From the IMG/VR virus record IMGVR_UViG_3300020428_000089, positions 1 through 23,213 of that record: a stretch of 23,213 nucleotides of DNA, one strand, 5' to 3'. The stretch's first letter is position 1. The number at the start of each line of letters is the position of its first letter. The notes below the pieces were generated by a model. It saw nothing but the letters and a program-made list of their open reading frames with translations, was not told the DNA's origin and made no database searches. Positions 5,919-23,194 of this stretch are shown one piece after another. The DNA is from a virus. Made by a program: the position numbers and the translations under genes.

Positions 5919-7700
5919 CTATCCTTGACATGCAAGACATTCATCTTGCGATTCCTCTTTGTTATTTAAAGACTCCGATAAAGCGACTCTATGAACTTTT
6001 TCTGCGACATTTTCCGCTCTATTTGTTGCCTCCGTTCTGAGATAATACAATCCCTTACAACCATGTCTCCACGCCTCAAAATGTACACTGTGGAGATATG
6101 ACTTCGATGCACCAGCAGGAAAAAATATATTCAAAGATTGCCCTTGACATAAATGTTTTTGTCTGCTTCCTGCCAGCCTTACTACATGCAATTGGTCTAT
6201 TTCAATTGCAGTTTTAAACACATTTTTAGTGTGTTCATCTAAAAACTCTAGATGTTGAACAGAACCACCAGTGGTTATTATTGAACTCCATACTTCATCT
6301 GTGTTCTGGTCTATTCTTTTGAGTTCTTTTTCTAAATATTGATTCTTAACTAAATGAGAACCAGCTCTTGTTCTGTGAGTATATGCATTTGCCTTTTGGG
6401 GTTCTATAGAAGGTGAAGTACCACAAATTATAGAACTATTTGCATTTGGAGCAATTGCAAGAAGATGTGAATTTCTTCTTCCAGTTCCTTCCATATCTGG
6501 ACATTCTCCCTTCTGCTCTGCCAAAAGCATAGTCTCTGCATCTGCTTCTTTTCTAATATGACTAAAAATCTCTTCGTCTTTTTCGATTGCATCAGTTGAT
6601 TCAAACGGTATCATATGTTTGTGAAAATATGAATGAAGTCCCATAGCACCAAGACCCAAATCTCTTGATTGTTGTGCAGAAAATCTTGCTCGTGATATTT
6701 CGTCTGGGGCGTTTTCAATAAAAAATTCTAGAACATTATCCAAAAATCTTATTAAATCTCTGACTAGATTTGTATCTTTCCATTCATCATATTTTTCAAC
6801 ATTAAGAGATGAAAGGCAACATACAGCAGTCCTATCTGCATCAGTAGGAAGGTGAATTTCATTACAAAGATTAGAACCATGTATCTTTAACCCTTTTCTT
6901 TTCATTGGTTCGGGCAAATCTCTATTTGCCGTATCAATAAAATTAAGATATGGTTCACCAGTTCTATATCTAGCTTCTAAGATTTGTTCCCACAATTTTC
7001 TCGCATTTACTGTCTCTCTTACTTGTTCTCCTCTTTCATTGGGGTCTACTAAATCCCAAGGTAAATCTGCTTGAACAGCACACATAAATTTGTCTGTTAT
7101 ATTTACTGCATGATGCAAATTAAGACACTTTCTATTGACATCACCAGTTGGTATTCTTAGATTTATGAACTCTGCAATATCTGGATGGTCAACATCAATA
7201 TAGGCTGCATATGACCCCTTACGAGTCCTTCCTTGACGATATGCCGTCATATCTGAGTCTACTGTGTGTAAGAAAGGAATGGGGCCAGGCGCCTTGTCAG
7301 ACACGCTACGGACATGTGACCAATGACCACCTACTCCACCACCCTTTACAGATAACCATCTTAATTCAGAAGTATGGTCAATTAAACCTTCTAATGTATC
7401 TGGTACATAGGTTAGAAAACAAGATATTGGCAGCGCTTTTGCTTTACCGCCAGGCAGTGGCGCATTAGATAAAACTGGAGATGAAAACATAAACCAACCA
7501 CTTGATACAGCATCATAAATTCTTTGTGCTAGTTTTTTGTCTCCACCAGAATATGCAGTGGAAGCTCTTGCGAATGCTTGTTGAGGAGAGTTCTCATCTG
7601 GTGTACAATAATAATCTTTTAATAATTTATAAGATTGTTCTGATAGTGTTGTGTCTTTCGAAAAATCAACAGACACGCCAGCATAGTAATCTTCTGACAT
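5919..7700 (-). CDS. nrdA: Class I ribonucleotide reductase large subunit NrdA, short form
   Basis: The catalytic subunit that reduces ribonucleoside diphosphates. The active-site triad N277, C279, E281 (GSNLCNEI) matches E. coli N437/C439/E441. The redox cysteines are C94 (PISCF) and C294 or C295. The radical-transfer tyrosines are Y552 and Y553 (YYLRT). The C-terminal shuttle pair is C588 and C591 (ECLACQG). PNANSS, a conserved substrate-phosphate loop, lies at 418-423. At 593 residues it is about 170 shorter than E. coli NrdA and starts near the ten-stranded barrel, so the N-terminal ATP-cone that gives dATP feedback inhibition is absent. GGGAG lies seven bases before the ATG. The downstream neighbour is the Grx-NrdB fusion. 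Confidence 0.96.
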   Translation of the reverse strand: MSEDYYAGVSVDFSKDTTLSEQSYKLLKDYYCTPDENSPQQAFARASTAYSGGDKKLAQRIYDAVSSGWFMFSSPVLSNAPLPGGKAKALPISCFLTYVPDTLEGLIDHTSELRWLSVKGGGVGGHWSHVRSVSDKAPGPIPFLHTVDSDMTAYRQGRTRKGSYAAYIDVDHPDIAEFINLRIPTGDVNRKCLNLHHAVNITDKFMCAVQADLPWDLVDPNERGEQVRETVNARKLWEQILEARYRTGEPYLNFIDTANRDLPEPMKRKGLKIHGSNLCNEIHLPTDADRTAVCCLSSLNVEKYDEWKDTNLVRDLIRFLDNVLEFFIENAPDEISRARFSAQQSRDLGLGAMGLHSYFHKHMIPFESTDAIEKDEEIFSHIRKEADAETMLLAEQKGECPDMEGTGRRNSHLLAIAPNANSSIICGTSPSIEPQKANAYTHRTRAGSHLVKNQYLEKELKRIDQNTDEVWSSIITTGGSVQHLEFLDEHTKNVFKTAIEIDQLHVVRLAGSRQKHLCQGQSLNIFFPAGASKSYLHSVHFEAWRHGCKGLYYLRTEATNRAENVAEKVHRVALSESLNNKEESQDECLACQG

Positions 7701-7726
7701 TTTTTACTCCCAAAATTTGTATATTA

Positions 7727-8746
7727 TCAACACTTTTTCCACGATGAAAGTGTGAGTTTTGCGTTTAGACCAGATGTGGTATTTTTACTTATTATGTCCA
7801 AGATTTCAGAACTATCGATTCCACTCAATATTGCATCATTTATATCTTTTGTTTTAATATATTTTGGCCAGAAAAATATATCAAAATTTTGGGAAATAAC
7901 TTTTTCCATTCTATCTACAATTTGTTTGTTTCTTGGTTCATTATCAAAAACAAATACTACATCTAGTTCTTTAAAATAATCTACGTCTATATCAGCCCCA
8001 GCCATAGCAATGGAGTTTTTTAAAAATAAACTATCAATTGGGCCTTCAACCACCAGAGTTTTTTGTTCTGCGTTTAGTCGTTCAAGACCATATATTTTTG
8101 GTGCATCTTCATCTATCTTAATAGTAATATATCTCATATTACTTTCACCAATGCTTCTACCTTGCAATGCGATTACATTACAATCATCATCAAAAAAAGG
8201 TATTACAATTCTTTTGTCGTTCTCAATGAGTTTATATCTATCTTTCGTAAGTTTTTCAACTACAGATTTGAAGTCATCTGTGTAAAATAATAATCCCTCA
8301 TGTGGTATTTTTCTCTCTTCCACATAAACTCTTGCTGGGTGGTCAACATCCAAATCAGATATTTTTGTTCCAAAATCAAAACTACAACGTCTTTTGAACT
8401 TTGGTTTAAAATCAAAGTTATATTTGTTGTCTGTTTCTTTTACTGGAGTTGGTCTTCCAGTTTGGCCAGACTTCCACTTTTCTATTTTGTATTCTTTTGA
8501 AAGTTTCGGAGAAACTTGTTCAAGGAAAGAGTATAATGTCATAGATGCACCACAATTATGACACATATAGTTAAACTGATTACCCTTTTGGTAAAAAAAT
8601 CCTCTCGCCTTCCACGCTTTAGTTTTTGAATCTCCACATAAAGGACAACGACAATTGTATAAATTGTCCTTTTTCTGTGTAAATCTTTCTAGTTGGTGGG
8701 AAAGTTGATTGATGTAAATTTTATCTATATGAATCACGAAACACAC
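7727..8746 (-). CDS. 61: T4 gp61-like DNA primase
   Basis: Makes RNA primers for lagging-strand synthesis, in T4 as part of the primosome with the gp41 helicase. The 339 residues match T4 gp61 (342). The N-terminal zinc-binding domain has C34-x2-C37 (CPLCGDS) and C62-x2-C65 (CHNCG). The TOPRIM domain has E234 and D238 in VVEGPIDSLF, and D268 with E270 in VFVFDNEPR. No ATG fits the frame: GTG at 8746 is the most upstream start, while GTG at 8737, giving MIHIDKIYINQ, matches relatives better. Neither has a good Shine-Dalgarno sequence. A promoter lies at 8769-8797 and a ten-codon ATG frame (8721-8750) overlaps the start, hinting at translational control. Confidence 0.92.
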   Translation of the reverse strand: MCFVIHIDKIYINQLSHQLERFTQKKDNLYNCRCPLCGDSKTKAWKARGFFYQKGNQFNYMCHNCGASMTLYSFLEQVSPKLSKEYKIEKWKSGQTGRPTPVKETDNKYNFDFKPKFKRRCSFDFGTKISDLDVDHPARVYVEERKIPHEGLLFYTDDFKSVVEKLTKDRYKLIENDKRIVIPFFDDDCNVIALQGRSIGESNMRYITIKIDEDAPKIYGLERLNAEQKTLVVEGPIDSLFLKNSIAMAGADIDVDYFKELDVVFVFDNEPRNKQIVDRMEKVISQNFDIFFWPKYIKTKDINDAILSGIDSSEILDIISKNTTSGLNAKLTLSSWKKC

Positions 8747-8768
8747 TCATTGTTTATATATTTCTATC

Positions 8769-8797
8769 ATAGTACACTAATATACCATGAATGTCAA
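8769..8797 (-). promoter_or_regulatory. Sigma-70-like promoter of the primase-RNR unit
   Basis: TTGACA (8797-8792), a 17-base spacer and TACTAT (8774-8769) on the minus strand, directly downstream of a strong terminator. The spacer ends TAGTG, as does that of the rnh promoter. It marks the start of the transcription unit 8746-3834. Confidence 0.75.
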
Positions 8798-8807
8798 GTT
8801 TTTTTAT

Positions 8808-8876
8808 AAAAAAGACATCAGAGAGGATTTTTACGATACTCGCTACCTAAACAGTATCTTTTACTCTGATGTCTTT
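8808..8876 (-). terminator. Strong intrinsic terminator with a two-part stem
   Basis: A 13-bp perfect outer stem (8876-8864 with 8823-8811, AAAGACATCAGAG and its complement) runs into a T-rich tract on the minus strand. Inside the 40-base apex a second 6-bp stem (8858-8853 with 8840-8835, GATACT/AGTATC) carries a 12-base loop. The apex is larger than in a plain terminator, so this could also be the 3' end of a structured RNA. It separates the small genes at 8980-9494 from the primase unit. Confidence 0.75.
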
Positions 8877-8943
8877 CTTTGTGGTCTTTATAGAGTTTCC
8901 TACTCTTGCAGATTTGTTCATTATTTTTTAGAGTGGTTATGAA

Positions 8944-8961
8944 CTAGGGGGCACCCCCAAG
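8944..8961 (-). other. GC-rich palindromic hairpin after the 113-aa gene
   Basis: The minus strand carries CTTGGGGGTGCCCCCTAG, five G and five C around a two-base centre, extended by CT/AG after one mismatch. It starts about 20 bases after the stop codon at 8980. No T-tract follows, so it is not a simple terminator. It is the most conspicuous GC run I see in an otherwise AT-rich window. The 8877-8979 interval around it contains no gene I can support. Confidence 0.5.
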
Positions 8962-8979
8962 GCAGTCCACTATTCCTAC

Positions 8980-9321
8980 TTATATTCCTTGTTCTATTGC
9001 GGCCTCTTGCATTATTTGTGTCAAGATGGGTTCTAACTTTATATTGAAATTATCGAACTGATGTTGACTTATACCGCCCCTAGTGTAGACAGACATATCA
9101 AAGAACTGCGTGAAATGACTCCTACGATTCATAAGACCATTATTGAAAAGGTCATGTATAAGATTCTGTGCAACACGAAACTTTTCTAGTTTTTTGTTCT
9201 TGGAACGTCCTTGAGGAACTTTTCCTTGAAATGGGACAAGTTCATTTAACTTTTCTTGAAGGTCTTTAAATCCTTCATTAACTGCCCAAGAAGTTTGAAA
9301 CAAAGGTAACTGTTCCATCAT
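8980..9321 (-). CDS. Conserved hypothetical phage protein, 113 aa
   Basis: A soluble protein beginning MMEQLPLFQTSWAVNEGF. The ATG at 9321 overlaps the TAA of the upstream 57-residue gene (TAATG), and GGAGAT lies inside that gene's end. Features are a basic stretch (KVPQGRSKNKKLEKFR, about 34-49), then a helix ending in LFNNGLMNRRSHFTQFF, and a C-terminal helix. I have a weak memory of the NKxLEKFRxAQNLxxDLFNNGLMNR block in marine T4-like phages, without a function. No enzymatic motif is visible. Confidence 0.75.
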   Translation of the reverse strand: MMEQLPLFQTSWAVNEGFKDLQEKLNELVPFQGKVPQGRSKNKKLEKFRVAQNLIHDLFNNGLMNRRSHFTQFFDMSVYTRGGISQHQFDNFNIKLEPILTQIMQEAAIEQGI

Positions 9322-9494
9322 TATAAAATATCTCCATCATTTGCTTCTACGAAATTAGTAGCGATTGCGACTTCTAACTCAAATAGTTCTTGCGACATCT
9401 CAGAAAAGTCTAGATGACTAATATAGTCATAGATGTTTTGAGCATAGTTTTGGGAACAGTTTAAGAGGTCTTTGATTTGATTCACATAGTACAT
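9321..9494 (-). CDS. Small acidic hypothetical protein, 57 aa
   Basis: A short gene between the promoter at 9526-9554 and the 113-residue gene. The ATG at 9494 follows an in-frame stop, and GAGAGAAAG lies about 12 bases upstream. The product begins MYYVNQIKDLLNCSQNYAQ and ends ANDGDIL; it is acidic, helical in appearance, rich in tyrosine and asparagine at the front, and has one cysteine. The TAATG coupling to the next gene supports it. No family is recognised. Confidence 0.7.
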   Translation of the reverse strand: MYYVNQIKDLLNCSQNYAQNIYDYISHLDFSEMSQELFELEVAIATNFVEANDGDIL

Positions 9495-9525
9495 TACGAA
9501 GTGCTTTCTCTCTGATTACATATAC

Positions 9526-9554
9526 ATGATCGCATAAGCCTAGGGGAAAGTCAA
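9526..9554 (-). promoter_or_regulatory. Sigma-70-like promoter with extended -10
   Basis: TTGACT (9554-9549), a 17-base spacer and GATCAT (9531-9526) on the minus strand. The -10 box is poor (4 of 6), but TGC directly before it supplies an extended -10. The GCTTGAC core is shared with the other promoters. It would drive the genes at 9494 and 9321. Confidence 0.6.
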
Positions 9555-9579
9555 GCACTATTTGTATTTTTTTACTTTT

Positions 9580-9885
9580 TTATTGAGTTTTCTGAGAAAG
9601 CATAATCTGAATCAATTGAGCAAGTTTCTCATCAGATGCCTTAGATATCTCTTGCTGTTGGGCAAGACTATTACTTATCTGTCTAATGGCCTGTGCATTG
9701 AGTTGAACACCAGTGCTATTGTGTTGAGAAAGTTGTTCATTCGATTCTACAATTTTTTCTATTCTTTCAACTTCATCCTCTGTCGCTTGGGCGTTAGCTT
9801 GGGCAGCTCCATATGATACTGCACCAACCACAGCGCTCACCACGAAAGGTAGTGCCCATGTAGGGACTTTTATCGCATCAGTCAT
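9580..9885 (-). CDS. Small membrane-anchored coiled-coil protein, 101 aa
   Basis: One hydrophobic segment at about residues 9-28 (WALPFVVSAVVGAVSYGAA) is followed by AQANAQA, which could serve as a signal-peptidase site. A long charged and glutamine-rich helix (about 36-101) with heptad-like spacing follows. It could be anchored in the inner membrane or cleaved and released to the periplasm. AGGAG stands about nine bases before the ATG. Three further envelope-type genes lie upstream, so a lysis or envelope role is plausible, but no holin or spanin family is recognised with certainty. Confidence 0.72.
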   Translation of the reverse strand: MTDAIKVPTWALPFVVSAVVGAVSYGAAQANAQATEDEVERIEKIVESNEQLSQHNSTGVQLNAQAIRQISNSLAQQQEISKASDEKLAQLIQIMLSQKTQ

Positions 9886-9932
9886 AGATACGTTCTCCTA
9901 ATGTTGTGATTAAGTTTTTATTGAACCATTAT

Positions 9933-10268
9933 TTAATTCTTGACGGCTAATATATCTCTAAGTTCTTCTCTAGTGATATATTTACCCATTTCTTTCTGAA
10001 GGTCATCTATATCAGATTCTATTACTGCAAGTCTTTGGGTTTGAACATTCAAAGCATTCTTGAGTGAAGTTGATTCAGATAACATTTGGGCGAGACCGAC
10101 TTTAACATCTACAAGTCCTGTTCCTACCCATGAAAGAAATCCTACAATAAGAACCATGGCAATCGTCTGGATACGAGTTTCTAATGCATGATTTCGTTGT
10201 ATACCCAACGTATTTTGTGCGACTGACTTTTTTAGTGCATCGATATCGATATCTTTTGAGTCTGACAT
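9933..10268 (-). CDS. Single-pass membrane protein, holin-like topology, 111 aa
   Basis: The N-terminal 33 residues are charged and soluble (MSDSKDIDIDALKKSV). A hydrophobic segment at about 34-53 (core IAMVLIVGFLSWVGTGL) follows, then a C-terminal coiled coil (about 58-105) ending in ITREELRDIL. A short cytoplasmic N-terminus, one membrane span and a periplasmic C-terminal domain is also the layout of T4 holin gpT, although T4 gpT is twice as long. The neighbouring spanin-like pair makes a lysis role worth considering. Sequence identity to a known holin is not claimed. Confidence 0.72.
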   Translation of the reverse strand: MSDSKDIDIDALKKSVAQNTLGIQRNHALETRIQTIAMVLIVGFLSWVGTGLVDVKVGLAQMLSESTSLKNALNVQTQRLAVIESDIDDLQKEMGKYITREELRDILAVKN

Positions 10269-10325
10269 GGTAAATACCTTATATTGTTATTATGTGGTTT
10301 TAATCTACTAGTATTTAGTGTTTTT

Positions 10326-12544: not shown

Positions 12545-15427
12545 TTATTTGATGTGTGAAGCGATTTTTGTTGCTCTTGATTTATTTTTGTACTTTTCCA
12601 TTGCTAGGTCAAATACTTTTTTCTTGAGTTCGTTAGTTTTTAACTTTGGTTCAAGTTCTTTAACTAACTCAGACATCTCTTTTGCATCAGATTTATCTGA
12701 CTCAGCAATAACTTCAAGAATTGCTTCTTCATTCTGTCTCTTCAAAACAGCAGCAACTTGTTTGTGATTTGACAAACCTTTTTTGATTTTCTCAATCGCT
12801 TTAGAAGCACCAGTATAATTACCACCCTTGTATCTAGGGTCAGAAGCAATACCAATGGCCATTTTGATTTCTTTGGCTGTAAATTTTGCCTCAGTAATTT
12901 CATCTGACTCATACATCTTACGATGGGCAAATGCAATACTTCTCAAATAATCTCCAACTTCTGCATTTGGATACATTTTCATAAATGTTGCTGGGTCATT
13001 TTGATTTATGTTTGAAAGTATTCTTTCACTTGGGTCTGTATCAATATTCCATGCAATTTTTCCAAGTTTTTTGAGGTCACCCTTTACATATGCAGCTTTC
13101 GCCTTTTTGAAGTCTGCCGTATCAACACTATCACTCTTAATCATCTTATCAAACTCTTTTACAGCAGCTGCTTGAGTTTTTGCCTCAATAAGTGCAATTG
13201 ACTCTTTTACCATCTTAGGAAGTTTACGAATACTATCATTATCTTCTAAAGCAGACTTTACATCTTTAACCTTATCTTTTGATACATAGAGTTTTCCGTC
13301 TGCAAAATAAGCATCATATTCTAGACCAGCATCTTGAAGAGTGTCCATTACTGTTCTTTCATAACCTTCCAGAACAACTGATTCTCTTTTCATCATCTTG
13401 TGTGCAATATCAACCAATTTTGGCAATGCAAGACCGTCCATCTTTTTCTTGTTTGCATCGTTAACTTTGTCATAAATTTGAGTAATCATAGATGCAGTAA
13501 ATAGGTCTACAGTTACACCTTTAATCTTCGCATGTTGTTTGTCTTTAACAATTGTTTGAAGTTGAGGAATAACACTTTTCGCCTCATCAATTTCAATACC
13601 AATAACTGTTTCTTCGTTCTTTTTCTTTCTCAACTTTGCAAGGTCATCACCATCAACTTCACCATTTTTGTTGAGGTCAATTTTCTTTTGTTTTGAAGAA
13701 AGTTCTTCTTCTTTCTTCTCTTTTTCTTTCTTTGAAATTGCAATTGCGGCTTGTTGAGCTGGACTGACTGCCTCTTTAAAATCTTTCAAAGTTTTTAACA
13801 TATCCCTGTAGGATTTTGCCATTGCGTTTTGAAACTTTTCTTTACTTCTTGGTTTCATTTTATCAAATCTCTGTAATGCATAATTAAGAAATTTTAGGTC
13901 AACCTTTTTACTCTTTCCATCTGCAAACTTGATTTTGTGATTTCCCTTGACATCGATTGCTTTACGAATTTGCATGATGATATTCATCTTTGCAGCTTCT
14001 TTATCAGCAGCTGTTGCATCGTTATCGATATCTGCTGGGTCAATATCTTTTTTAACTTCGAAAATGCTATCATTAATGTTCATTATTGTCTCCTCTTTGA
14101 AATCTGCTATTGAAGCCCCCATATCACCAATTGCAAATGTTACTCGACCATCTCTCTTGTACATAAATCTTTTCACACCTGTAGGATTACCTTGCAAAAT
14201 TAATGCAATTTTTTCTACACCATTTTTTAATTTATTTTTTGATTTAACAACATATGGTTGGAGTCCTTTTCCTTTACTAATTGAGGAGTCTACTTTTAAT
14301 TGAATAACGTCTTTTGTTTTTAGTTTATCAAATACTTTTACTAATTTGTTTGAGTCTACCTTTTCTGTGAGAACTCCACTGTTCAAGAGAGAAATAAATA
14401 GTTCCTCTTCTTTGTAACAATGAGATGCATTGAGTGGTTGACCAATCATTTGCTTCTTCTTAGTTTTTATAATTCTTAATGTCTTTTTATCTTTAACTTT
14501 AATTGGTGGAAGTTCAGCTGATGCGATTGAAGATTTTGCACCTTTCTCATCTGAAGCAGTTGCAACTATTTTATTTTTATCAGCAGTGTCGTATACTACA
14601 AATGGTTCTTTTAATTCATTGAGTATATTAACCATTTCCTTATTAAGTGCGAATTTCTCTTCATTCATTGATTCTTTATACATATTGAGTTCATATGAAT
14701 TACCAGTATTATAGACTTGAATCTGTACACCCTTTTTACCATCTTTACCCATTAAACGATATGAGTTAGTTTTTCCCTTAGATGGTTTTCTGGGGCCCGT
14801 TGCAACTTTATTGTCAATCTCTTCTGGGTCAATCTCAATTTTCAATTTCTTCTTTGCAAAATCATAAGCATGCTTCATCGCACTTGAAAAGTCTTTATGA
14901 TAAAGCTCATATCCAGTTGATGATTTACCTTCTTCTATCTCATCTTTGTCATGAACATATCCTAATTTCTTCATGCGAATATGGTCATCGTAAGTCTTTG
15001 CCTCGTAACCTTTACCTGTTTTTGGATCATACATCATATGTGGTTCAAAATCTTTTTCTTCGCCCATCGCAAGAACCTCTGCTGGTTTACTGCTTCCTTT
15101 AAGATTGTCATATGCAAATTTAAAAATGTCTTTAAGTTGGTCTTTAGTTCCCTTGACCAAAAAACCATTTTTTCTGGGTTGGTCTGTGACAATCGCTTTC
15201 ATCTTTTTTGCCATCTTCAATATATCACTCATAAAGGAATTATCTTTGACATTCTTGACTAATACAGTACCTTTCGCCATTTCGACAACGGTATTTGCAA
15301 CATCACTCCCTACTGTAACTGGGAAAGTTTTATCACCAAACTTAAACTCTTTTTTGCCTTGTTTTTTCGCTTGGGAAGCGGCTGCAACAAAATCTGATAC
15401 ATCCTCTGGGAAAATACTTGTAGACAT
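12545..15427 (-). CDS. Large modular virion-type protein, 960 aa
   Basis: Not a known enzyme. I see a chain of small modules joined by charged linkers. They are an N-terminal domain (1-115), a MMYDPKTGKGYEAKTYDDHI module (131-150), and a basic domain (170-250). KEPFVVYDTADKNKIVATA follows at about 273-291, then a VFDKLKTKDVIQLKV domain (365-445). An alpha-helical block with IRKAIDVKGNHKIKFADGKS lies at about 487-506, and an EF-hand or dockerin-like loop DLNKNGEVDGDDL (584-596). The tail (850-960) has ASDPRYKGGNYTGASKAIEK. Sequences ending I/L-x-E followed by A, G or S occur at several module borders (after 166, 615, 748, 846 and 909). These resemble T4 prohead protease sites. Context suggests an internal head or core protein. 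Confidence 0.8.
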   Translation of the reverse strand: MSTSIFPEDVSDFVAAASQAKKQGKKEFKFGDKTFPVTVGSDVANTVVEMAKGTVLVKNVKDNSFMSDILKMAKKMKAIVTDQPRKNGFLVKGTKDQLKDIFKFAYDNLKGSSKPAEVLAMGEEKDFEPHMMYDPKTGKGYEAKTYDDHIRMKKLGYVHDKDEIEEGKSSTGYELYHKDFSSAMKHAYDFAKKKLKIEIDPEEIDNKVATGPRKPSKGKTNSYRLMGKDGKKGVQIQVYNTGNSYELNMYKESMNEEKFALNKEMVNILNELKEPFVVYDTADKNKIVATASDEKGAKSSIASAELPPIKVKDKKTLRIIKTKKKQMIGQPLNASHCYKEEELFISLLNSGVLTEKVDSNKLVKVFDKLKTKDVIQLKVDSSISKGKGLQPYVVKSKNKLKNGVEKIALILQGNPTGVKRFMYKRDGRVTFAIGDMGASIADFKEETIMNINDSIFEVKKDIDPADIDNDATAADKEAAKMNIIMQIRKAIDVKGNHKIKFADGKSKKVDLKFLNYALQRFDKMKPRSKEKFQNAMAKSYRDMLKTLKDFKEAVSPAQQAAIAISKKEKEKKEEELSSKQKKIDLNKNGEVDGDDLAKLRKKKNEETVIGIEIDEAKSVIPQLQTIVKDKQHAKIKGVTVDLFTASMITQIYDKVNDANKKKMDGLALPKLVDIAHKMMKRESVVLEGYERTVMDTLQDAGLEYDAYFADGKLYVSKDKVKDVKSALEDNDSIRKLPKMVKESIALIEAKTQAAAVKEFDKMIKSDSVDTADFKKAKAAYVKGDLKKLGKIAWNIDTDPSERILSNINQNDPATFMKMYPNAEVGDYLRSIAFAHRKMYESDEITEAKFTAKEIKMAIGIASDPRYKGGNYTGASKAIEKIKKGLSNHKQVAAVLKRQNEEAILEVIAESDKSDAKEMSELVKELEPKLKTNELKKKVFDLAMEKYKNKSRATKIASHIK

Positions 15428-15455: not shown

Positions 15456-17153
15456 TTATGGTTTTAAGTTATTCATGAAATCTTCATATTTAAGAACTTT
15501 ACTTGATGTCCCGAAATTCTTCTTCCTCATGATAGTTTTGTTGACAAGCTCAAACTCTCCATCCTTGTAGTTTATAACTACAGGCAGATTTAAATCTGTA
15601 GACATGTCCTTTAATACTGCTTCTATATCTGGATTTGACAGTATATTCTTACCTTTGTTTTTTTGAATCTTTTTAAATAACTTTTGAAGTTCTGAGACTT
15701 TTATCTCTGGACTGTTTCTTGGGTCATTCATCCTATCAACAAAATGTCTGGTAAATGTCACATCTATATTAAACTTTTTTAGAAGTTTATCTGCGAACTT
15801 TTCCAAATCACTTACTTGTTTTGGAGTAACCTCTTCTTCGATGAAATCATGATAAAACATCATCTCTTCTTCTTCAGAGATATTAAGTTTTTTTCTCAAA
15901 TCTTGAATCTGTTTCAAAACTTTTTTATGTGCAGGCGAACCAGCAGGCAGCTGCATCCCCTTGTTGTAAAGTTTCAATAGTTCTAAAGGTACTTTAATTT
16001 CTTTTTCTTCTACCTTTTCCCCATATTTTTTCTTCAAGATATTAGTTGCAGTGGCCATTTTAACTTGCATCCACTCATCACCATATCTTTTTTTAAAATC
16101 AGAATCATCAAGTTCTTTTGTAATATCTTCTAGTTCTTTTTTGACTTTTGGATTTGAAAAATCTAAATCTTCAACCATCCTTGCGAGAAGTTTGTAATCA
16201 ACATGTGAAAAACTTCTTGCAATCTGGTTAGCATAATATAAAACACCATGTTTCAACCCTCTACCACCTGACTCCTTTGTTTTCCTGTCAAGTACCTTTT
16301 TTAGTGTTTCGGCTGCCTTCTGATATTCTTTTGTATAAAGAGTATTTGCTAGTGCCTTTTTTAATGTTCTTCCTCCTAAAATTCTTTCAAATCCTACTTC
16401 CATAAAAGGCTCAAGAACACTTTCCTTTTTTTCATAATTGAGAGGCAAATCAAATGTTTCTTTCATAAAAGAAATTAATTCATCTTCTTCCAAATCTTCT
16501 ACAAGTTCTGGTATCTTCGTATCCATGAAATCATGCAAGGCAAGAATTTCTGCCTCAAACATTTCTTTCATCATACCTTCTACCTTCATTGCAGAACGAA
16601 CAGCAGAAAATAAATCTTCTCCATTTTTAAATGATTTCGGAAGACCGTTTTTAAATGAATCATAATCATTCGCAACAGCGGCTGCTCTCATTTTTGATGC
16701 AGACATTCCTGTTACACCTTCTGCATCTGGGTCACGTTCACCAGCAGATACTACTTGAATCCCACCTTCAAAATCATAAAATCCATGTCTGCCTATCTTA
16801 CCATTATATTTGTTTAATGTTGCATCAAACTCTGTGACTCTATCCCCACCTACAACCATAATACATTTCTTATATCCCATATCTTGAAGAAGAGAAGCAA
16901 CATTAAATGCAGTCTTTATTTTGGTATTTTTGATTATGTTTCTTGCGTACTTTGGAAACATTTTTTTCATGAATTTAACTTTAGTGTTAAAATCAAGTGG
17001 GTCTTTTTTTGCATTTTGTGACTGACTAGGAAAAATCATAAAGTCTGCTTTCTCTTTGCGAGCGACAGCACCAACCTTTTCTATCAACTTTTCATGTCCA
17101 GTTGTGGGGGGATTGAATCTCCCAAATGCAAAAACTATTGTGTCTTTCATCAT
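15456..17153 (-). CDS. Cytidylyltransferase-like nucleotidyltransferase with a possible RNase-like C-terminal domain
   Basis: A 565-residue protein. Residues 1-160 form a Rossmann nucleotidyltransferase of the NMNAT/cytidylyltransferase type. GRFNPPTTGH (11-20) is a variant of the nucleotide-binding HxGH motif, VVGGDRVTEF lies at 100-109, and GMSASKMR (149-156) stands in the place of the ISSTxxR motif. The middle is helical. From about 440 to the end is a separate domain with TFTRHFVDRMNDPRNSPEI (466-484). Its H470, R474 and R479 and overall plan resemble the barnase/colicin/RelE-like nuclease domains (PBECR-type) found on phage virion proteins. That second assignment is tentative. The ATG overlaps the upstream stop (ATGA). 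Substrate is unknown; NAD metabolism or a modified host target are options. Confidence 0.82.
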   Translation of the reverse strand: MMKDTIVFAFGRFNPPTTGHEKLIEKVGAVARKEKADFMIFPSQSQNAKKDPLDFNTKVKFMKKMFPKYARNIIKNTKIKTAFNVASLLQDMGYKKCIMVVGGDRVTEFDATLNKYNGKIGRHGFYDFEGGIQVVSAGERDPDAEGVTGMSASKMRAAAVANDYDSFKNGLPKSFKNGEDLFSAVRSAMKVEGMMKEMFEAEILALHDFMDTKIPELVEDLEEDELISFMKETFDLPLNYEKKESVLEPFMEVGFERILGGRTLKKALANTLYTKEYQKAAETLKKVLDRKTKESGGRGLKHGVLYYANQIARSFSHVDYKLLARMVEDLDFSNPKVKKELEDITKELDDSDFKKRYGDEWMQVKMATATNILKKKYGEKVEEKEIKVPLELLKLYNKGMQLPAGSPAHKKVLKQIQDLRKKLNISEEEEMMFYHDFIEEEVTPKQVSDLEKFADKLLKKFNIDVTFTRHFVDRMNDPRNSPEIKVSELQKLFKKIQKNKGKNILSNPDIEAVLKDMSTDLNLPVVINYKDGEFELVNKTIMRKKNFGTSSKVLKYEDFMNNLKP

Positions 17154-17596: not shown

Positions 17597-19018
17597 TTAC
17601 TTTCCCTTGTGCTTTTGCCAAAGGTCATTGTCAGACTTCCTTGCACCACCACCTGTGATAAAAGAGTTGACTCTTGCAAATGCCCATTGTTGGGGGGTTG
17701 TGCCTGGTCTGTGGCCACCTTTCCATGCAGCCATACCTCTATCATATACTTTTTTCAATATTCCATATGAAATACCAGATTTTTCTGATTTCTTCTTAAG
17801 TCCTTCTATTGCCTCTCCAAACATATCATGATACTTTTTAGTATGTTTTGAGGGTTTTGTTTTTGCGTTTGCATCGCCTGGCGCTGGGCCTTTTTTCTTT
17901 GAATCAAAATGTCTCGCTCTAGCTTGTTTAGTAGACTTTGACATCTCATCACCATCAGCATCTTTTGCATAATACTTTGCTGGTTGTGTTCCTTTTCTAT
18001 CTTCTATATCTTTGTCTTGACGAACTTCAGTAAAAGATTTAAGTGTTTTGGGGAACTGTTGATTAACATCTTCCAGATTTGTCATAACCTTCATTAGAAG
18101 TTTATCTTTTGCTAGGGTATGAATTAATGCTTTAACCTCACCAGCATCCATTTTCAACTTCTTTGCAATTTCTTTCGGAGACATTCCTTTTTTGTGAAGT
18201 GTAAACATATCTTTTAGTTTGCCCTCACTCACATAACTTTTTGTCAACTTTTCAATTTTTGCATATGGTGAATCTTTAAGATAAGTCTTCTTTGCTTTAT
18301 CTGTTCCAAACTCCCCAGCTCCTGCTTTCGATACAAATGGTTGTTTTTCTGCACCAGATACAGATTCCCCCATATTCAACAAATTATATAATTGTCCATC
18401 CTTCATAGTTGGTAGTATTTTCTTTAATTCTTTTTCTGGGTCTAGACTTTTAAGTGCAGCCTTTTCAAATTCATCTGCATATTTTTTTAAATTTTCGTGC
18501 CCTTTACCACGCATTGCGTGTGCAATATCTTTTACATATTCTTTTTCTTGGGCCTTACCTGTCAACCTTTTTACAGCTTCTTCTGGTATACAATTAGGCA
18601 CCATATTACCGTTTTTTCCTTTTTTCATTCCGACTTGTTTATATCCATCCCAACAAGGATTTTCTTCATCAACTTTTGCACCACCTCGCCACTGATAACA
18701 AGACCAATATTTAGCTTTCCACTTAGGGCCTGGATCTTTATCGCAACCATGTCTAGCTCTAAACGATGCTCGGCGTTTAGGGTCATCTCTTTTTATTTCC
18801 ATATTCGGATCACCAAAAGTAACCTTGACAATATTACCCTTATCATTCTTGGCATATACTCCAAACTTCTTTTTCGAGCCTGAAGGAAGACGAAAAGGAT
18901 TATTTAAATCTACTTTACGACCTTGATATTCTGCTTCTATAATAACATGGTCAAAGAGTTCATTTGAAGAGCAGTCTTCACAACCACAATCTTCCATGAA
19001 TAATTTAAATGATTTCAT
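17597..19018 (-). CDS. Mosaic internal-head-type protein, 473 aa, with capsid-targeting-like leader
   Basis: The ATG at 19018 overlaps the upstream TGA (ATGA) and has AAGGA nearby, so the longer frame from 19057 is not used. The leader MKSFKLFMED resembles the T4 internal-protein leader MKTYQEFIAE; a second possible cleavage site is IIE-A at 26-29. Modules follow. A basic cysteine domain at about 62-110 has FGDPNMEIKRDDPKRRASF, then RARHGCDKD and YWSC, and I recall it as DUF5872-like. A PCWDGYKQVGMKKGKNGNMV knot lies at 121-140. A helix-turn-helix-like stretch MSPKEIAKKLKMDAGEVKAL is at 279-298. The end (414-467), with GISYGILKKVYDRGMAAWK and HRPGTTPQQW, is DUF5824-like. Its function is unknown; it is probably packaged in the head. 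Confidence 0.82.
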   Translation of the reverse strand: MKSFKLFMEDCGCEDCSSNELFDHVIIEAEYQGRKVDLNNPFRLPSGSKKKFGVYAKNDKGNIVKVTFGDPNMEIKRDDPKRRASFRARHGCDKDPGPKWKAKYWSCYQWRGGAKVDEENPCWDGYKQVGMKKGKNGNMVPNCIPEEAVKRLTGKAQEKEYVKDIAHAMRGKGHENLKKYADEFEKAALKSLDPEKELKKILPTMKDGQLYNLLNMGESVSGAEKQPFVSKAGAGEFGTDKAKKTYLKDSPYAKIEKLTKSYVSEGKLKDMFTLHKKGMSPKEIAKKLKMDAGEVKALIHTLAKDKLLMKVMTNLEDVNQQFPKTLKSFTEVRQDKDIEDRKGTQPAKYYAKDADGDEMSKSTKQARARHFDSKKKGPAPGDANAKTKPSKHTKKYHDMFGEAIEGLKKKSEKSGISYGILKKVYDRGMAAWKGGHRPGTTPQQWAFARVNSFITGGGARKSDNDLWQKHKGK

Positions 19019-19332
19019 TTTCCTTGCCTCTTTAACATTGTTATTTTTTTCTTCCAAGCTGGTTTGCCCATTTCTTTCTCTACATCTTGAACAGCATCCA
19101 TAAAGAAATGGAGCATTTTCATTTCATACTCTATACTTCCCCAATTCTCTCTTTTTGCCTGTTTGACCATCTGTTCTAAATATCCTACGACTTTTCTTTT
19201 TACTTGGTCATGTCTTAGTCTACCATAACCACGCAAAAGTACTTCTGGATTGGTTGCATCATCAGAAGATTGTGGTTTGGTATCGTATATTTGTCCAGTA
19301 CCAGCCTCTGTTAATTGTTTAAAACTTTTCAT
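19015..19332 (-). CDS. Small internal-head-type protein with LTE-A leader, 105 aa
   Basis: The leader MKSFKQLTEAG matches the T4 capsid-targeting pattern, with L-T-E followed by A as the expected prohead protease site after residue 9. The remaining body is about 96 residues, basic and helical. It contains TNPEVLLRGYGRLRHDQVKR (about 27-46), then VVGYLEQMVKQAKRENWGSI, then FFMDAVQDVEKEMGKPAWKK. ATGA overlaps join it to both neighbours. The body resembles no enzyme I know; small basic helical proteins with this leader behave in T4 as injected internal proteins. Confidence 0.78.
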   Translation of the reverse strand: MKSFKQLTEAGTGQIYDTKPQSSDDATNPEVLLRGYGRLRHDQVKRKVVGYLEQMVKQAKRENWGSIEYEMKMLHFFMDAVQDVEKEMGKPAWKKKITMLKRQGK

Positions 19333-19838
19333 TTTTTTGATCTCCCAAACATTCTTTTCATAAACGATTTTTTATCATTTTTGGGTGTTTCGGGTTCTGG
19401 GTTGGTTAAGGTATACGCAACAAGGCCTTGTTTGGCACGGCCGTTAACTTCAATATCCCATTTAGATTTTGTTCCCCACATTTTTAAAAATCTTTTATAA
19501 AGTTTTGATCTATTACCGTCTTGTTTATTTGCATAGAAAGTTATTTTTCTGGCCTTAGTTTTGTCCAATTGCCCCCACCATTTTAACAAAGCGGCTTGGA
19601 CTGTCGCAAAAATTCTAAACTCATCACCTTGACCAGTTCGACCCATATTCTTTTTAGATGAACCTCTTGCAAATTCTATCTCATAAATACCATCAGGATC
19701 TTCACTAATATGAATATCTAACGCACTACCATCGTCAAGTTTTGCAATAGCACTTGAGGCACCTGTTGGTTTTAAATATTCCCATTTTATCGGATAGGGA
19801 TTATCAAATGCCTCGTTATATTGTTTAAAACTTATCAT
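19329..19838 (-). CDS. Internal-head-type protein with leader and compact alpha/beta domain, 169 aa
   Basis: Begins MISFKQYNEAFDN, close to the leader pattern, although the residue three before the expected cut is Y rather than L or I. The body has a beta-rich part (SAIAKLDDGSALDIHISEDP, about 29-48; YEIEFARGSS). A helical VQAALLKWWGQLDKTKARKI segment and a KITFYANKQDGNRSKLYKRF block (about 99-118) follow, and the tail is basic (SFMKRMFGRSKK). The FYAxKxDGxRxKLYxRxL pattern recurs in phage structural proteins and faintly recalls an acetyltransferase-like fold, but no catalytic residue can be named. It overlaps the upstream gene by 14 bases and the next by 4. Confidence 0.78.
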   Translation of the reverse strand: MISFKQYNEAFDNPYPIKWEYLKPTGASSAIAKLDDGSALDIHISEDPDGIYEIEFARGSSKKNMGRTGQGDEFRIFATVQAALLKWWGQLDKTKARKITFYANKQDGNRSKLYKRFLKMWGTKSKWDIEVNGRAKQGLVAYTLTNPEPETPKNDKKSFMKRMFGRSKK

Positions 19839-20139
19839 CTATTTTATCCTCATAATCATCTGCCCCATATATCATATAATCATGAACAGCAGAAACACTA
19901 TGAGCTGCATTACTAAATTTTGATTGTACCCAAGCAGGAAGTTCTATATCTGCATTATTATTTTGAACAACTAAATCCATAAGAAAGTCTGCAAGTTCAT
20001 TTGCCTTATGTTGGATAACTCTCAATTGACCAATAGCCATATCAACTTCTCTATCTTCAGTCAACTCCTTTACTTCATTATTTTCTACCAACTTTTTATA
20101 AGTTGTCTTCCAATCTGCTCTAACATTTTTTACAGTCAT
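19825..20139 (-). CDS. Conserved small helical phage protein (ELPAWVQSK family), 104 aa
   Basis: A helical protein with charged N-terminus (MTVKNVRADWKTTYKKLVEN) and a central helix (MAIGQLRVIQHKANELADFL). The block ELPAWVQSKFSNAAHSVSAV, followed by HDYM, spans about 66-89. The xLPxWVQSKIxxAxxYIxxxxDY pattern is one I recognise from many marine T4-like phages, often next to internal-protein genes. The function is unknown. The start overlaps the thermonuclease stop by ATGA, and GGAG stands inside the end of that gene. Confidence 0.8.
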   Translation of the reverse strand: MTVKNVRADWKTTYKKLVENNEVKELTEDREVDMAIGQLRVIQHKANELADFLMDLVVQNNNADIELPAWVQSKFSNAAHSVSAVHDYMIYGADDYEDKIDDKF

Positions 20140-20537
20140 ATCAGCTCTCCTAATTTTGTTCTATTTAATAAGTGTTCTTCTTCAATTTCTTTTTTTGATT
20201 GACCGTGATATTTTACTGCATGATGTTCTTCTATCATCTTTTGATTTACATTAGTATCGTAACAATACATTTCACCAAGAATACGACCAAATTTCCCTTT
20301 TGCGTCTTTCTGGGTCTTTATTGTAACACCACCAGAAGTCAACCATTTAGTCAAATATTCTTTCGCAGCCAAACCATATTTTTTTTCTTCCAAATCTCTT
20401 GTTCTAGATTCGGGGGTATCGATTCCAAAGAGTCTAATTCTTTGTTTTTTCAACCATACTCCAAATCCTAAATCAATATCTACATCAATGGTATCCCCAT
20501 CAACGATTTTTACTACTTTGCAACTATATTCATACAT
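20136..20537 (-). CDS. Thermonuclease (staphylococcal nuclease family)
   Basis: A 133-residue SNase-fold nuclease, Ca2+-dependent in the family, cutting DNA and RNA. All key positions are present: the acidic VDGDT loop (D13, D15), R35 and D40-T41-P42-E43 in RLFGIDTPES, and R85 in GKFGRILGEM. These correspond to the catalytic arginine, metal aspartates, general-base glutamate and second arginine of the prototype. No signal peptide is seen, so it acts in the cytoplasm or is packaged in the virion. It lacks the capsid-targeting leader of its neighbours and is joined to them by a 2-base gap upstream and ATGA downstream. It could help degrade host DNA; the role in this phage is inferred. Confidence 0.93.
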   Translation of the reverse strand: MYEYSCKVVKIVDGDTIDVDIDLGFGVWLKKQRIRLFGIDTPESRTRDLEEKKYGLAAKEYLTKWLTSGGVTIKTQKDAKGKFGRILGEMYCYDTNVNQKMIEEHHAVKYHGQSKKEIEEEHLLNRTKLGELI

Positions 20538-20539
20538 AT

Positions 20540-21793
20540 TTATTTATCCCAAGCCTTAGCGGCAGTAAAATTGTTATAACTGAACTCCATTCTGTCAACT
20601 AATTTAACAGCAGTAGTTCCGTCCCTATCGACAGCAACATATCCTTCTTCGTTACTGACCTTGTAACCATCCTTAGTTCTAACGAATATTTTTGCAAGTT
20701 GTTTTACTGAATTAAGTTTTGTAACGATTAATTGTTTTGCTTCTACCAATGAACTCATGAACTCTACAAGATTCAATATTAGAGAATCTTGTTTCAATAG
20801 TTGTGCGACAACCTCATCTCTAATTTGTTCTTTTTGTTTTTTCGCCTTGTCTGTTTTAAGTTTTGCAATAACCTTATCATCAAAGTATCCTTTTACATAC
20901 ATTGAATATGGTGTTTTCTTTACAGCAGATACGTTAAATTTTTCTCCTCTTTTTACATATTGATTTAAATATGTTTTAAAAGATGCCCCCACTAAACCTT
21001 TAGTTAATGTGTTATTCTGTAAATCAAGAAATTTCTTTAATTCTGATGATTTGATTTTTTGAAATGTTTTCCCTGTGGAAGATAGTATTTTTGTAACTTT
21101 CTCTGTTTCAGCTAATGTAAACTTTGCCTTTCCAGAAACATCTTTATATGATGCATCATCCATCCAGATACTTGATGTGGTTTTCAATTTACTAGTATCA
21201 GCACCAAACTTTGCAGTCATGTCTTGCAGTGTTGGGCCTCCTTCATATGTGGTATGCCAAACAACTCCTAGTTTTGCCTTAGAAACTATCTTACCCAAAC
21301 CGCTATTAACAGGGATAGCATAAACAAGAGTATTAGGCTGAAAAGTGTAATATGATATCCCATCAATATCTTTTTTCGATATATCATCTGTGAACATGAG
21401 GTCTCCTTGGAGAACTCCTTTGATTCCAAGTTTTGGGATTTCTGCGAGAGCAATTTTAAATTTTGAATTGAGTTGTCCTTTAAGTTCTGCATCTATTTCT
21501 TGATTTGTTTTATAAAATTTTGGATTTGCATTAAATACACCTTTTTTTGCGACAAAAAACTTTCCATCTTCTGGGTCAATTCCAGCAAATATTGCTGGGG
21601 CCCCATCCCATTTTACAGTCATATTAACACCAGAAGATGAACTTCCAGCAAGCATATTTCTAAGAGACCGTAAAAAGTTAATTGCAGCTCTACCGCCCGT
21701 TATTCCATAGTTTATTATTTCATCTTCAAGATGTTCTAGGTGAAGATTTTTACCACCCTTACCTTCAGTCAGGATTTCCATAAAATTTTGCAT
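20540..21793 (-). CDS. KxDG nucleotidyltransferase-like protein (DUF6267-like) with capsid-targeting leader
   Basis: A 417-residue protein of a family widespread in marine T4-like phages that I know as DUF6267. The leader MQNFMEILTEGKGG ends in L-T-E then G, a good prohead-protease-type site after residue 10. The body carries K61-W-D-G64 in VKWDGAPAIF, then FFVAKKG (79-85), IKGVLQGDLMF (124-134) and LGVVWHTTYEGG (175-186). This resembles the order of motifs I, III and IV of covalent nucleotidyltransferases (DNA/RNA ligases, capping enzymes), with K61 as the would-be AMP- or GMP-accepting lysine. Motif V is not obvious. It is translationally coupled (TAATG) to the possible nuclease gene. Activity has not been shown to my knowledge; it may be an injected ligase-like repair or modification enzyme. 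Confidence 0.8.
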   Translation of the reverse strand: MQNFMEILTEGKGGKNLHLEHLEDEIINYGITGGRAAINFLRSLRNMLAGSSSSGVNMTVKWDGAPAIFAGIDPEDGKFFVAKKGVFNANPKFYKTNQEIDAELKGQLNSKFKIALAEIPKLGIKGVLQGDLMFTDDISKKDIDGISYYTFQPNTLVYAIPVNSGLGKIVSKAKLGVVWHTTYEGGPTLQDMTAKFGADTSKLKTTSSIWMDDASYKDVSGKAKFTLAETEKVTKILSSTGKTFQKIKSSELKKFLDLQNNTLTKGLVGASFKTYLNQYVKRGEKFNVSAVKKTPYSMYVKGYFDDKVIAKLKTDKAKKQKEQIRDEVVAQLLKQDSLILNLVEFMSSLVEAKQLIVTKLNSVKQLAKIFVRTKDGYKVSNEEGYVAVDRDGTTAVKLVDRMEFSYNNFTAAKAWDK

Positions 21794-23151
21794 TAGTAAA
21801 GCTTCCCAAATGGCCCGAAAATGTTTCCTTTTTTCTGAGCGAGATACGTTAGAGATGTCAGTAAATCATTTCTATCTTTTTCTTTTAAACTATATAGTTT
21901 ACACATAAGGTCTAGTTGCATCAATTTACTATGTGCGAAATCTGGTCTTGCACTTCCATAAACTGCCATAAAATTAGTTTGAAAGTCTTTTGCCTTTATT
22001 GACGTTATAGATTCAACTTTCTTAAACTGGTAAAGAAATTCAGATGCTCTTTTTTCAAACTCTGATGCTGTTCTAGGAAATTTTTTATTATCATTATTTA
22101 ATGGTATTCCAAACTTCTTAAAAAGTGTTGCAGCCATACTCAAAGGGACTTTACCTAATCTGGCAGACGTTGCTCCCATATCAGTTCCTTCTATTTTTAA
22201 ATTGTTAAATCCAGCACTATTTTGTCTTATTTGAAATTTTACATCACCCTGTTTACCAGAAACAACAATTTTAGCATCTGAGTTTTTGAAGTTATTTTTC
22301 CCAGCCATATTAAGAGATAGTTGAGCACTTTTTAATTTGAACTGATATTCATCGTTGTCAAAAACATCCATATTTTCTAGATTTACCAATTCCCACTTCG
22401 CAGTTCTTCCAGACATCTTTTTAAGAGATATTCCTATTACTTTTTTTGCATGGAACATATCTCTAAGAATTGCATTAAATTCTTCTATTGGAGTTACATC
22501 ATCCATTACATATTTTTCTAGTTCTCTTTTTACTTTTGGGAAATCATGTACCAACCAAATATCGGCAGGATTCCAAGTATCTTTTTTTGCAATACCATAT
22601 TTGTTTTTGCAGATACCAGTAATATAGTCCATAAATCCACCATCTCTTGAATAGTGTTTATATGGGGTATTACCTACTTCTCTATATGTTGTGAGTTGTT
22701 GTTGAAAGAATGTATTTTCCCATTCTTCATTCATGTCTGGATATATCTTAATCAAATCTTCTCTATAAAGTTCATAAAACTTTTTCTGATTTGTATATCC
22801 ATTATTTTCGATTGATTTTTGTATTGCGAACAGTGATGCAAGTTCTTGTTGTTGTGTGGTCTTGCCGTCAGATGCACCACCAAGATTTGTGAACTGACTC
22901 TTATCTATCTCTGTCCACTTGTGGGTATTAAATATCCCAGCGTATTGCGAACCAACTTTCAATACCTTTTCTATATCTCTCTCATTTTTATTCTTGACAG
23001 ATTTTAGAAAAGATTTTACGACATCAGTTTGCTCAATTATTTGGAGGCGACCACCTACTTTGATTTGTTCGTTATTTTCTATTATATCTGAAACCATATT
23101 AAGATACGGTTTCTGGAAAGTGATATAAATTCCACCAGTTAAGTTTGCCAT
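21793..23151 (-). CDS. Conserved phage protein with possible PD-(D/E)XK-like nuclease core, 452 aa
   Basis: A 452-residue protein known to me from marine T4-like phages without a firm function. Three blocks line up as a restriction-endonuclease-like core: SDGKTTQQQELASLFAIQ with E103 (95-112), DTWNPADIWLV with D197 (191-201), and KKVIGISLKKMSG with S-L-K244 (236-248). A helical stretch separates D197 and K244 by about 45 residues, a usual distance. In this reading the E of ExK is replaced by serine, as in SLK variants of some type II enzymes. The C-terminal 190 residues hold no recognised motif. It has no capsid-targeting leader. It is the first gene after the promoter pair at 23173-23207, and its binding site GGGAG lies in a hairpin. 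Confidence 0.78.
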   Translation of the reverse strand: MANLTGGIYITFQKPYLNMVSDIIENNEQIKVGGRLQIIEQTDVVKSFLKSVKNKNERDIEKVLKVGSQYAGIFNTHKWTEIDKSQFTNLGGASDGKTTQQQELASLFAIQKSIENNGYTNQKKFYELYREDLIKIYPDMNEEWENTFFQQQLTTYREVGNTPYKHYSRDGGFMDYITGICKNKYGIAKKDTWNPADIWLVHDFPKVKRELEKYVMDDVTPIEEFNAILRDMFHAKKVIGISLKKMSGRTAKWELVNLENMDVFDNDEYQFKLKSAQLSLNMAGKNNFKNSDAKIVVSGKQGDVKFQIRQNSAGFNNLKIEGTDMGATSARLGKVPLSMAATLFKKFGIPLNNDNKKFPRTASEFEKRASEFLYQFKKVESITSIKAKDFQTNFMAVYGSARPDFAHSKLMQLDLMCKLYSLKEKDRNDLLTSLTYLAQKKGNIFGPFGKLY

Positions 23152-23156
23152 AGGAT

Positions 23157-23194
23157 AACTCCCTTTATTTACTATTTATATTATAAAGGGAGCT
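23157..23194 (-). promoter_or_regulatory. Hairpin that can mask the ribosome binding site of the 452-aa gene
   Basis: On the minus strand CTCCCTTTAT (23192-23183) pairs perfectly with ATAAAGGGAG (23168-23159) across a 14-base loop, and one G-U plus one A-U pair extend it in RNA. The Shine-Dalgarno GGGAG, seven bases before the ATG at 23151, lies wholly in the 3' arm, while TATAAATA lies in the loop. Read-through RNA would hide the site, whereas RNA started at the local promoters would lack the 5' arm. T4 gene e uses the same design. Confidence 0.7.

Follow-up and report, generated by a model that had tools for sequence, protein, structure and literature searches.

Predicted T4-type capsid-targeting leaders on clustered genes of a marine T4-like phage and its relatives

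In bacteriophage T4, the internal proteins (IPs) IPI, IPII and IPIII, together with Alt, carry an N-terminal capsid-targeting sequence (CTS); this propeptide of 10–19 residues is cut at L/I-x-E by the prohead protease gp21, and the first 10 residues of IPIII suffice for incorporation (PMC9026906). The gp21-like proteases of phages phiKZ and SPN3US likewise cut many head-packed proteins after the Glu of a very short motif (PMC9026906). Enzymes have also been reported from purified virions of cyanophages (PMC10665884, PMC9602691, PMC3037559). Here, we describe leaders resembling the T4 CTS in IMG/VR virus record IMGVR_UViG_3300020428_000089, positions 1 to 23,213 (this whole 23.2-kb stretch is referred to as the window), and in related phages. 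We consider these leaders very probably to be CTSs like those of the T4 internal proteins, serving a wider cargo that includes enzymes.

Between the window and Methylophilales phage Melnitz, the DUF6267 proteins share 61% identity, and on sequence grounds the window is assigned to a T4-like marine myophage, as a fragment nearest to Melnitz. The latter is a complete T4-like genome, in which a prohead protease, a prohead core protein and gp23 are annotated. A gp21-type protease, gp22 scaffold and gp23 are annotated in Melnitz, HTVC008M, S-SM1 and S-CREM2, and gp23 reads FLSE/AA in Melnitz vs FLTE/AE in T4 (a slash marks the cut, here and below; cuts in the leaders and at module borders are predicted).

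Four shared leaders and their conservation

A first-pass annotation had singled out four gene starts in the window as sharing a leader like the T4 CTS. All are true ATG starts on the minus strand, at 19018, 19332, 19838 and 21793, and the pattern described for them holds: residue 4 is F in every case and E stands at position 9, 9, 9 and 10 (summarised as M-x-x-F...[LFY]-x-E), with predicted cuts at MKSFKLFME/D, MKSFKQLTE/A, MISFKQYNE/A and MQNFMEILTE/G, respectively. As had been noted, an exact L-x-E followed by A or G occurs in two of the four; P3 is F or Y in the other two. The bodies are indeed unrelated (best pairwise BLASTP E about 0.9 among the four): by Pfam, one is a DUF6267 protein, one of 473 amino acids (aa) contains DUF5824, and two are small proteins without a match over the cut-off. 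The parts of these proteins are as follows.

21764..21793, minus strand: leader MQNFMEILTE of the DUF6267 protein (from alignment)
20540..21763, minus strand: DUF6267 body, candidate ligase-type nucleotidyltransferase (PF19782, 4e-101; KWDG, QGDLM, EGYVAVD, KLVD)
19812..19838, minus strand: leader MISFKQYNE of the 169-aa protein (fits the strict rule given below)
19306..19332, minus strand: leader MKSFKQLTE of the 105-aa protein (strict rule; homologue leaders MKNFTQLKE and MRNFKEFNELTE)
18992..19018, minus strand: leader MKSFKLFME of the 473-aa protein (fits the strict rule)
18935..18991, minus strand: second propeptide segment of the 473-aa protein, ending ...DHVIIE, with a second predicted cut E/A at residue 28
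18668..18934, minus strand: module AEYQGRKV... of the 473-aa protein (phrog_7595-like, by phrog_7595 match)
17813..17821, minus strand: predicted internal protease site FGE (MFGE/AIEG) of the 473-aa protein, at the junction before DUF5824
17600..17812, minus strand: C-terminal module of the 473-aa protein with DUF5824 (PF19141, 4e-20; match at residues 367–462)

The first-pass annotation had proposed checking further genes in related phages for the tag, and it was widely found there: like leaders were seen across cyanophages, pelagiphages, phage C48C1 and the soil Stenotrophomonas phage DLP6. Cluster proteins of Melnitz start MQGFKTFLSE/AK, (MLT)LINFSKYITE/D, MKKFSELTSE, MKKFSEIIE/A (fused to a cytidylyltransferase), MTRYNKTMSE/A and MKNFKNHIAE/E. 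By predicted cut site, leader length is 9–10 residues in the window and about 5–25 in relatives. In an alignment of 36 DUF6267 relatives, the leader varies in both length and letters, with L8 and E10 nearly invariant directly before the conserved body; L-x-E is also fixed while the leader varies among 54 DUF6267 sequences. Examples are MLDFKNFITE/Q in phage C48C1, MMKFTQFLAE/S in DLP6 and the reduced leaders of pelagiphage-type proteins (e.g. MELLNE/D and MLLVE/D), in which L-x-E is retained.

The cytidylyltransferase occurs without a leader (MKDTVVFTFGRF, and in the window) and with one (MKKFKELTE/AKKFASFTFGRF, MRSFRSHVTE/AKETIVFTFGRF), and under a loose test 32 of its 37 distinct N-termini bear an x-E leader. 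A kinase family matching the AAA_33 and zeta-toxin models shows the leader forms MKTFAELQE/G, MIPFILKE/G and LNE/G, and its Melnitz member (MKTFAELQEG, at 65855) lies at a separate locus; an NT5C-like protein has additional residues before its domain that end in x-E. No relatives of the 169-aa protein were present among the loci fetched.

A separate observation concerns T4 itself. Gene 61.1 (54 aa, function unknown; locus coordinates 18966–19130) starts MKTFKEFIKE/DMVAG, closely resembling the IP leaders, and its product may possibly be a further T4 internal protein.

Enrichment, late promoter and virion detection

For the genome scans, a strict rule was applied that requires F or Y at position 4 and a hydrophobic residue, T or S two before an E at 9–11, with a permissive P1'; each gene was assumed to begin at its most upstream suitable ATG, a source of noise. 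In the window, the rule marks 4/19 cluster-region genes vs 0/15 elsewhere. Counts for the corresponding clusters and all other genes are 5/17 vs 2/190 in Melnitz, 2/12 vs 2/210 in S-SM1 and 1/20 vs 2/168 in HTVC008M; these three genomes combined, with the window excluded, give 8/49 vs 6/568 (Fisher p = 1.9e-6). One outcome named beforehand as counting against a targeting role was an equal frequency of the motif on cytoplasmic proteins; the motif was found on 1% of genes outside the cluster vs 16% inside. Internal methionines, taken as background, fit the rule in 14 of 3564 cases (0.4%), and in a T4 control IPII and IPIII were recovered. A laxer motif rule, with a background of 2–8%, had been replaced by the strict one ahead of the S-CREM2 test described below.

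The sequence TATAAATA, a late promoter sequence of the kind that T4 uses, precedes the operon head of the window (23173–23180) and occurs in the same place in Melnitz, as well as before Melnitz gp23. Across Melnitz-like loci, it stands ahead of 29/51 operon heads vs 7/87 other post-gap genes (p = 5e-10, a value that is only indicative because the loci are related). The generic late-promoter pattern ATAAATA is no commoner than chance within the window; for this pattern, only the position before operon heads is informative.

Published proteomes place leader-bearing proteins in purified virions of S-SM1 (PMC3037559) and S-CREM2 (PMC10665884), which supports the T4-type reading made from the window alone. 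The S-SM1 protein is the cytidylyltransferase T4-GC190 detected by Sullivan et al. 2010 (PMC3037559), with the N-terminus MKKFSAFLNE/AERSF. For S-CREM2, Table 3 of PMC10665884 lists four non-structural enzymes plus two endolysins, and all four non-endolysin enzymes carry the leader: the SAM hydrolase (MKDFDSFLE/E), the APH-like kinase (MKRFDAFLTE/E), the cytidylyltransferase (MKNFSSFLTE/A) and the Cas9-like protein, in which it is an internal copy (...LRFASFMAE/AA, residues 17–25). Two further S-CREM2 proteins bear it too, gp13 (MKDLHSFLTE/Q) and gp136 (MQTFSMFFSE/D). The strict rule, fixed before this test, marked 6 of the 219 annotated genes scanned, and virion proteins make up 4 of the 6. 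Counting non-structural genes alone, virion detection applies to 4/6 marked vs 26/191 others (p = 0.005), and among all genes to 4/6 vs 48/213 (p = 0.03). A second, looser core pattern gave a similar outcome with a higher background and was not relied on. A kinase of S-CRM01 has been reported in virions as well (per PMC10665884) and is probably the one starting MISFDQFLSE/K; NMNAT was also found in S-SCSM1 virions (PMC9602691).

Some neighbouring features of these genomes were recorded in passing. S-CREM2 gp12 (Cas9-like, 7704–10313) and S-CRM01 g128 (6405–6956) have in common an odd, MxSRWxxWSxG-like start, followed by an internal leader-like segment ending FMAE/AA or FIKE/AA at about residue 25. 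The virion-detected S-CREM2 gp156 (26012–26725), which adjoins the cytidylyltransferase, has a PF01909 nucleotidyltransferase match and starts MKKLISE/L.

Module borders and possible cargo functions

Several cluster proteins are mosaics whose modules recur in other combinations. At well-supported mosaic borders, the density of [LIVMF]xE/[AGSDN] is 3.05x that found 20–45 residues away; corresponding motifs with K, D or N/Q/S/T gave 0.56–0.60, and other multidomain proteins of the same loci 0.96. A predicted cut site lies 2 residues upstream of the EYQGK module in 14/14 distinct contexts, and the AEYQGRKV module of the window also occurs in other protein contexts with [LIVMFY]xE directly before it every time. 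For DUF5824, the site is 19–20 residues upstream of a landmark motif in 20/20 contexts, the preceding sequence being largely unrelated. The 473-aa window protein combines the leader with VIIE/AEYQGRK and MFGE/AIEG. With L-x-E exactly at their junctions, the mosaics look like polyproteins, that is, precursors that would be cut into pieces during head maturation.

Beside these borders, it was noticed that the stand-alone EYQGK module of HTVC008M (locus coordinates 9011–9412) starts MTFEFKHPSKYKTVKEVKEETMVKSFKEVEE; its internal MVKSFKEVEE suggests that the true start may be further down. Similarly, the cytidylyltransferase mosaic of the window has an internal MMFYHDFIEEE (residues 432–443) at a module junction, and here a once independent gene, leader included, seems to have been fused in frame. 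The other features of the cluster are:

23173..23180, minus strand: T4-type late-promoter sequence TATAAATA, closely preceding the operon head
21793..23151, minus strand: phrog_1462 protein (phrog_1462 match), operon head, without leader in the window
20136..20537, minus strand: SNase-family nuclease (PF00565, 1e-15) of the same operon, without leader
15456..17153, minus strand: cytidylyltransferase/NMNAT-like mosaic protein, without leader in the window, most relatives with leader; internal leader-like MMFYHDFIEE at about residues 433–442
12545..15427, minus strand: 960-aa mosaic protein, whose predicted sites coincide with module junctions or lie close to them (e.g. EIDE/AK at 615, ITE/AK at 846)

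The Melnitz gene at the place of phrog_1462 does bear a leader (MQGFKTFLSE/AK). By eye, NPADIWLVHDF...IGISLKK in the phrog_1462 protein is like a PD-(D/E)XK nuclease core.

In the DUF6267 alignment, K61, D63, G64, Q129-G130-D131-L132, E383-G384, V386, K397, V399 and D400 are invariant. The KWDG-type, QGDL, EGxVAxD and KxVD residues look like ATP-dependent ligase motifs, and the set expected of covalent nucleotidyltransferases (ligases), KxDG plus residues of motifs III, IV and V, was found with motif numbers assigned by eye. Comparison of predicted structure models with RNA and DNA ligases gave Z of 5–6, mostly over 150–185 residues, with unrelated helical hits tying; Foldseek returned nothing significant for either model, and a profile search against PDB sequences found nothing. 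A ligase-like fold is thus a suggestion only, and it is speculation that DUF6267 would form an end-repair kit with the kinase and phosphatase of relatives. It is conceivable, if somewhat short of probable, that marine T4-like phages use capsid-targeted polyproteins in which one leader carries a mosaic precursor into the prohead, the protease cuts at module borders and an enzyme kit is injected; this kit might cover the repair of nucleic-acid ends (through the ligase-like DUF6267, the AAA_33 kinase and the NT5C phosphatase) as well as NAD-related functions, acting before any phage gene expression.

Interpretation and comparison with known systems

In the mechanism that we favour, the operon would be transcribed late, and the first 9–12 residues of a tagged precursor would bind the prohead scaffolding core, so that the protein is built into the head. 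The prohead protease (a gp21 homologue) would then cut after the Glu of [L/I/F/Y]-x-E, leaving the mature protein free in the capsid, from which it would exit with the DNA at the next infection and enter the next host. The same protease would be expected to cut several long cluster proteins at module junctions, one tagged precursor yielding several pieces.

Several points weigh against this interpretation. The related loci are non-independent samples. The 23.2-kb fragment contains no protease, scaffold or capsid gene, and the tag is not on every cluster protein, being absent from the nuclease, cytidylyltransferase and phrog_1462 genes of the window; many pelagiphage cytidylyltransferases show only L-K-E at residue 6 and no glutamate at 9–10, and TATAAATA stands ahead of only 1/47 pelagiphage-type operons. 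Glu without a hydrophobic P3 is also enriched at module borders, by 1.94-fold, so part of the border excess may be due to E-rich linkers. Lastly, the S-CREM2 authors allow that the enzymes could be contaminants of the CsCl preparation (PMC10665884); the leader on these enzymes argues against contamination.

Other explanations of the shared starts were considered. Genes in the cluster lie close together, stops overlapping with starts, and their early codons are rich in A/T, as would suit a translation or mRNA feature (an initiation region, or coupling of overlapping genes) instead of a protein signal; yet L-x-E keeps in register with the protein body while leader length varies, and the motif recurs at internal junctions far from start codons, which already largely refutes this idea and makes it very unlikely. 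Slightly less improbable, though still quite unlikely, is that the leaders belong to minor structural proteins of the head, in which they would bind the scaffold or form the core and be cut in the manner of T4 gp67 and gp22, and that these proteins serve head assembly alone. A number of cluster proteins are rich in lysine and have no known function, and T4 core proteins are cut at many sites by the same protease (PMC9026906), but the tagged bodies include many enzymes (cytidylyltransferase, AAA_33 kinase, NT5C phosphatase, SAM hydrolase and APH kinase). A single gene start recently copied between neighbours, or coincidence in a genome rich in AT, could account for the MKSFK common to two neighbours and for the background fits (6/568), but a functionless likeness is hardly credible given that the pattern is retained across many divergent phages, in different genes and at different loci (e.g. 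the Melnitz kinase), and that the rule predicts S-CREM2 virion proteins.

If the leaders are CTSs, a sequence rule predicts virion-borne proteins among the many uncharacterised proteins of abundant ocean phages. The leader would also account for the repeated detection, in virion proteomes of cyanophages, of enzymes such as the cytidylyltransferase, for which the authors were unable to rule out contamination. As natural tags of small size, the leaders could be used to pack foreign proteins into phage heads beyond the T4-E. coli system, and that late mosaic proteins are cut into separate cargo pieces becomes a testable idea.

A literature search on capsid targeting and cyanophages, incomplete in coverage, returned no description of leaders of this kind from marine phages of the T4 type. 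The cyanophage virion enzymes (NMNAT-like cytidylyltransferase, APH/ChoK-like kinase, SAM hydrolase and Cas9-like protein) are the same as or similar to those considered here, but the available portions of the papers describing them (PMC10665884, PMC9602691, PMC3037559) mention no targeting leader; its presence would explain why these enzymes are found in virions. The phiKZ and SPN3US proteases belong to another phage group and use other P3 residues (S/A-x-E in phiKZ), and we know of no common leader of this form in the head proteins of those phages. The closest likeness is to the T4 CTS, with which the marine leaders share the short N-terminal form (MKTYQEFIAE/A in T4), an aromatic residue at position 4, a hydrophobic-x-E that a small or acidic residue follows, bodies without relation to one another, the late promoter sequence and, in relatives, T4-type head genes. 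The T4 CTS is known; what appears to be new, judging from sequence, is the larger enzymatic cargo and the predicted border cut sites of the marine phages. Compared with T4, their cargo is a larger conserved set that includes enzymes, many of its members are mosaics in which additional cut sites are predicted where modules meet, and the range of P3 residues is broader (L, I, F, Y and M).

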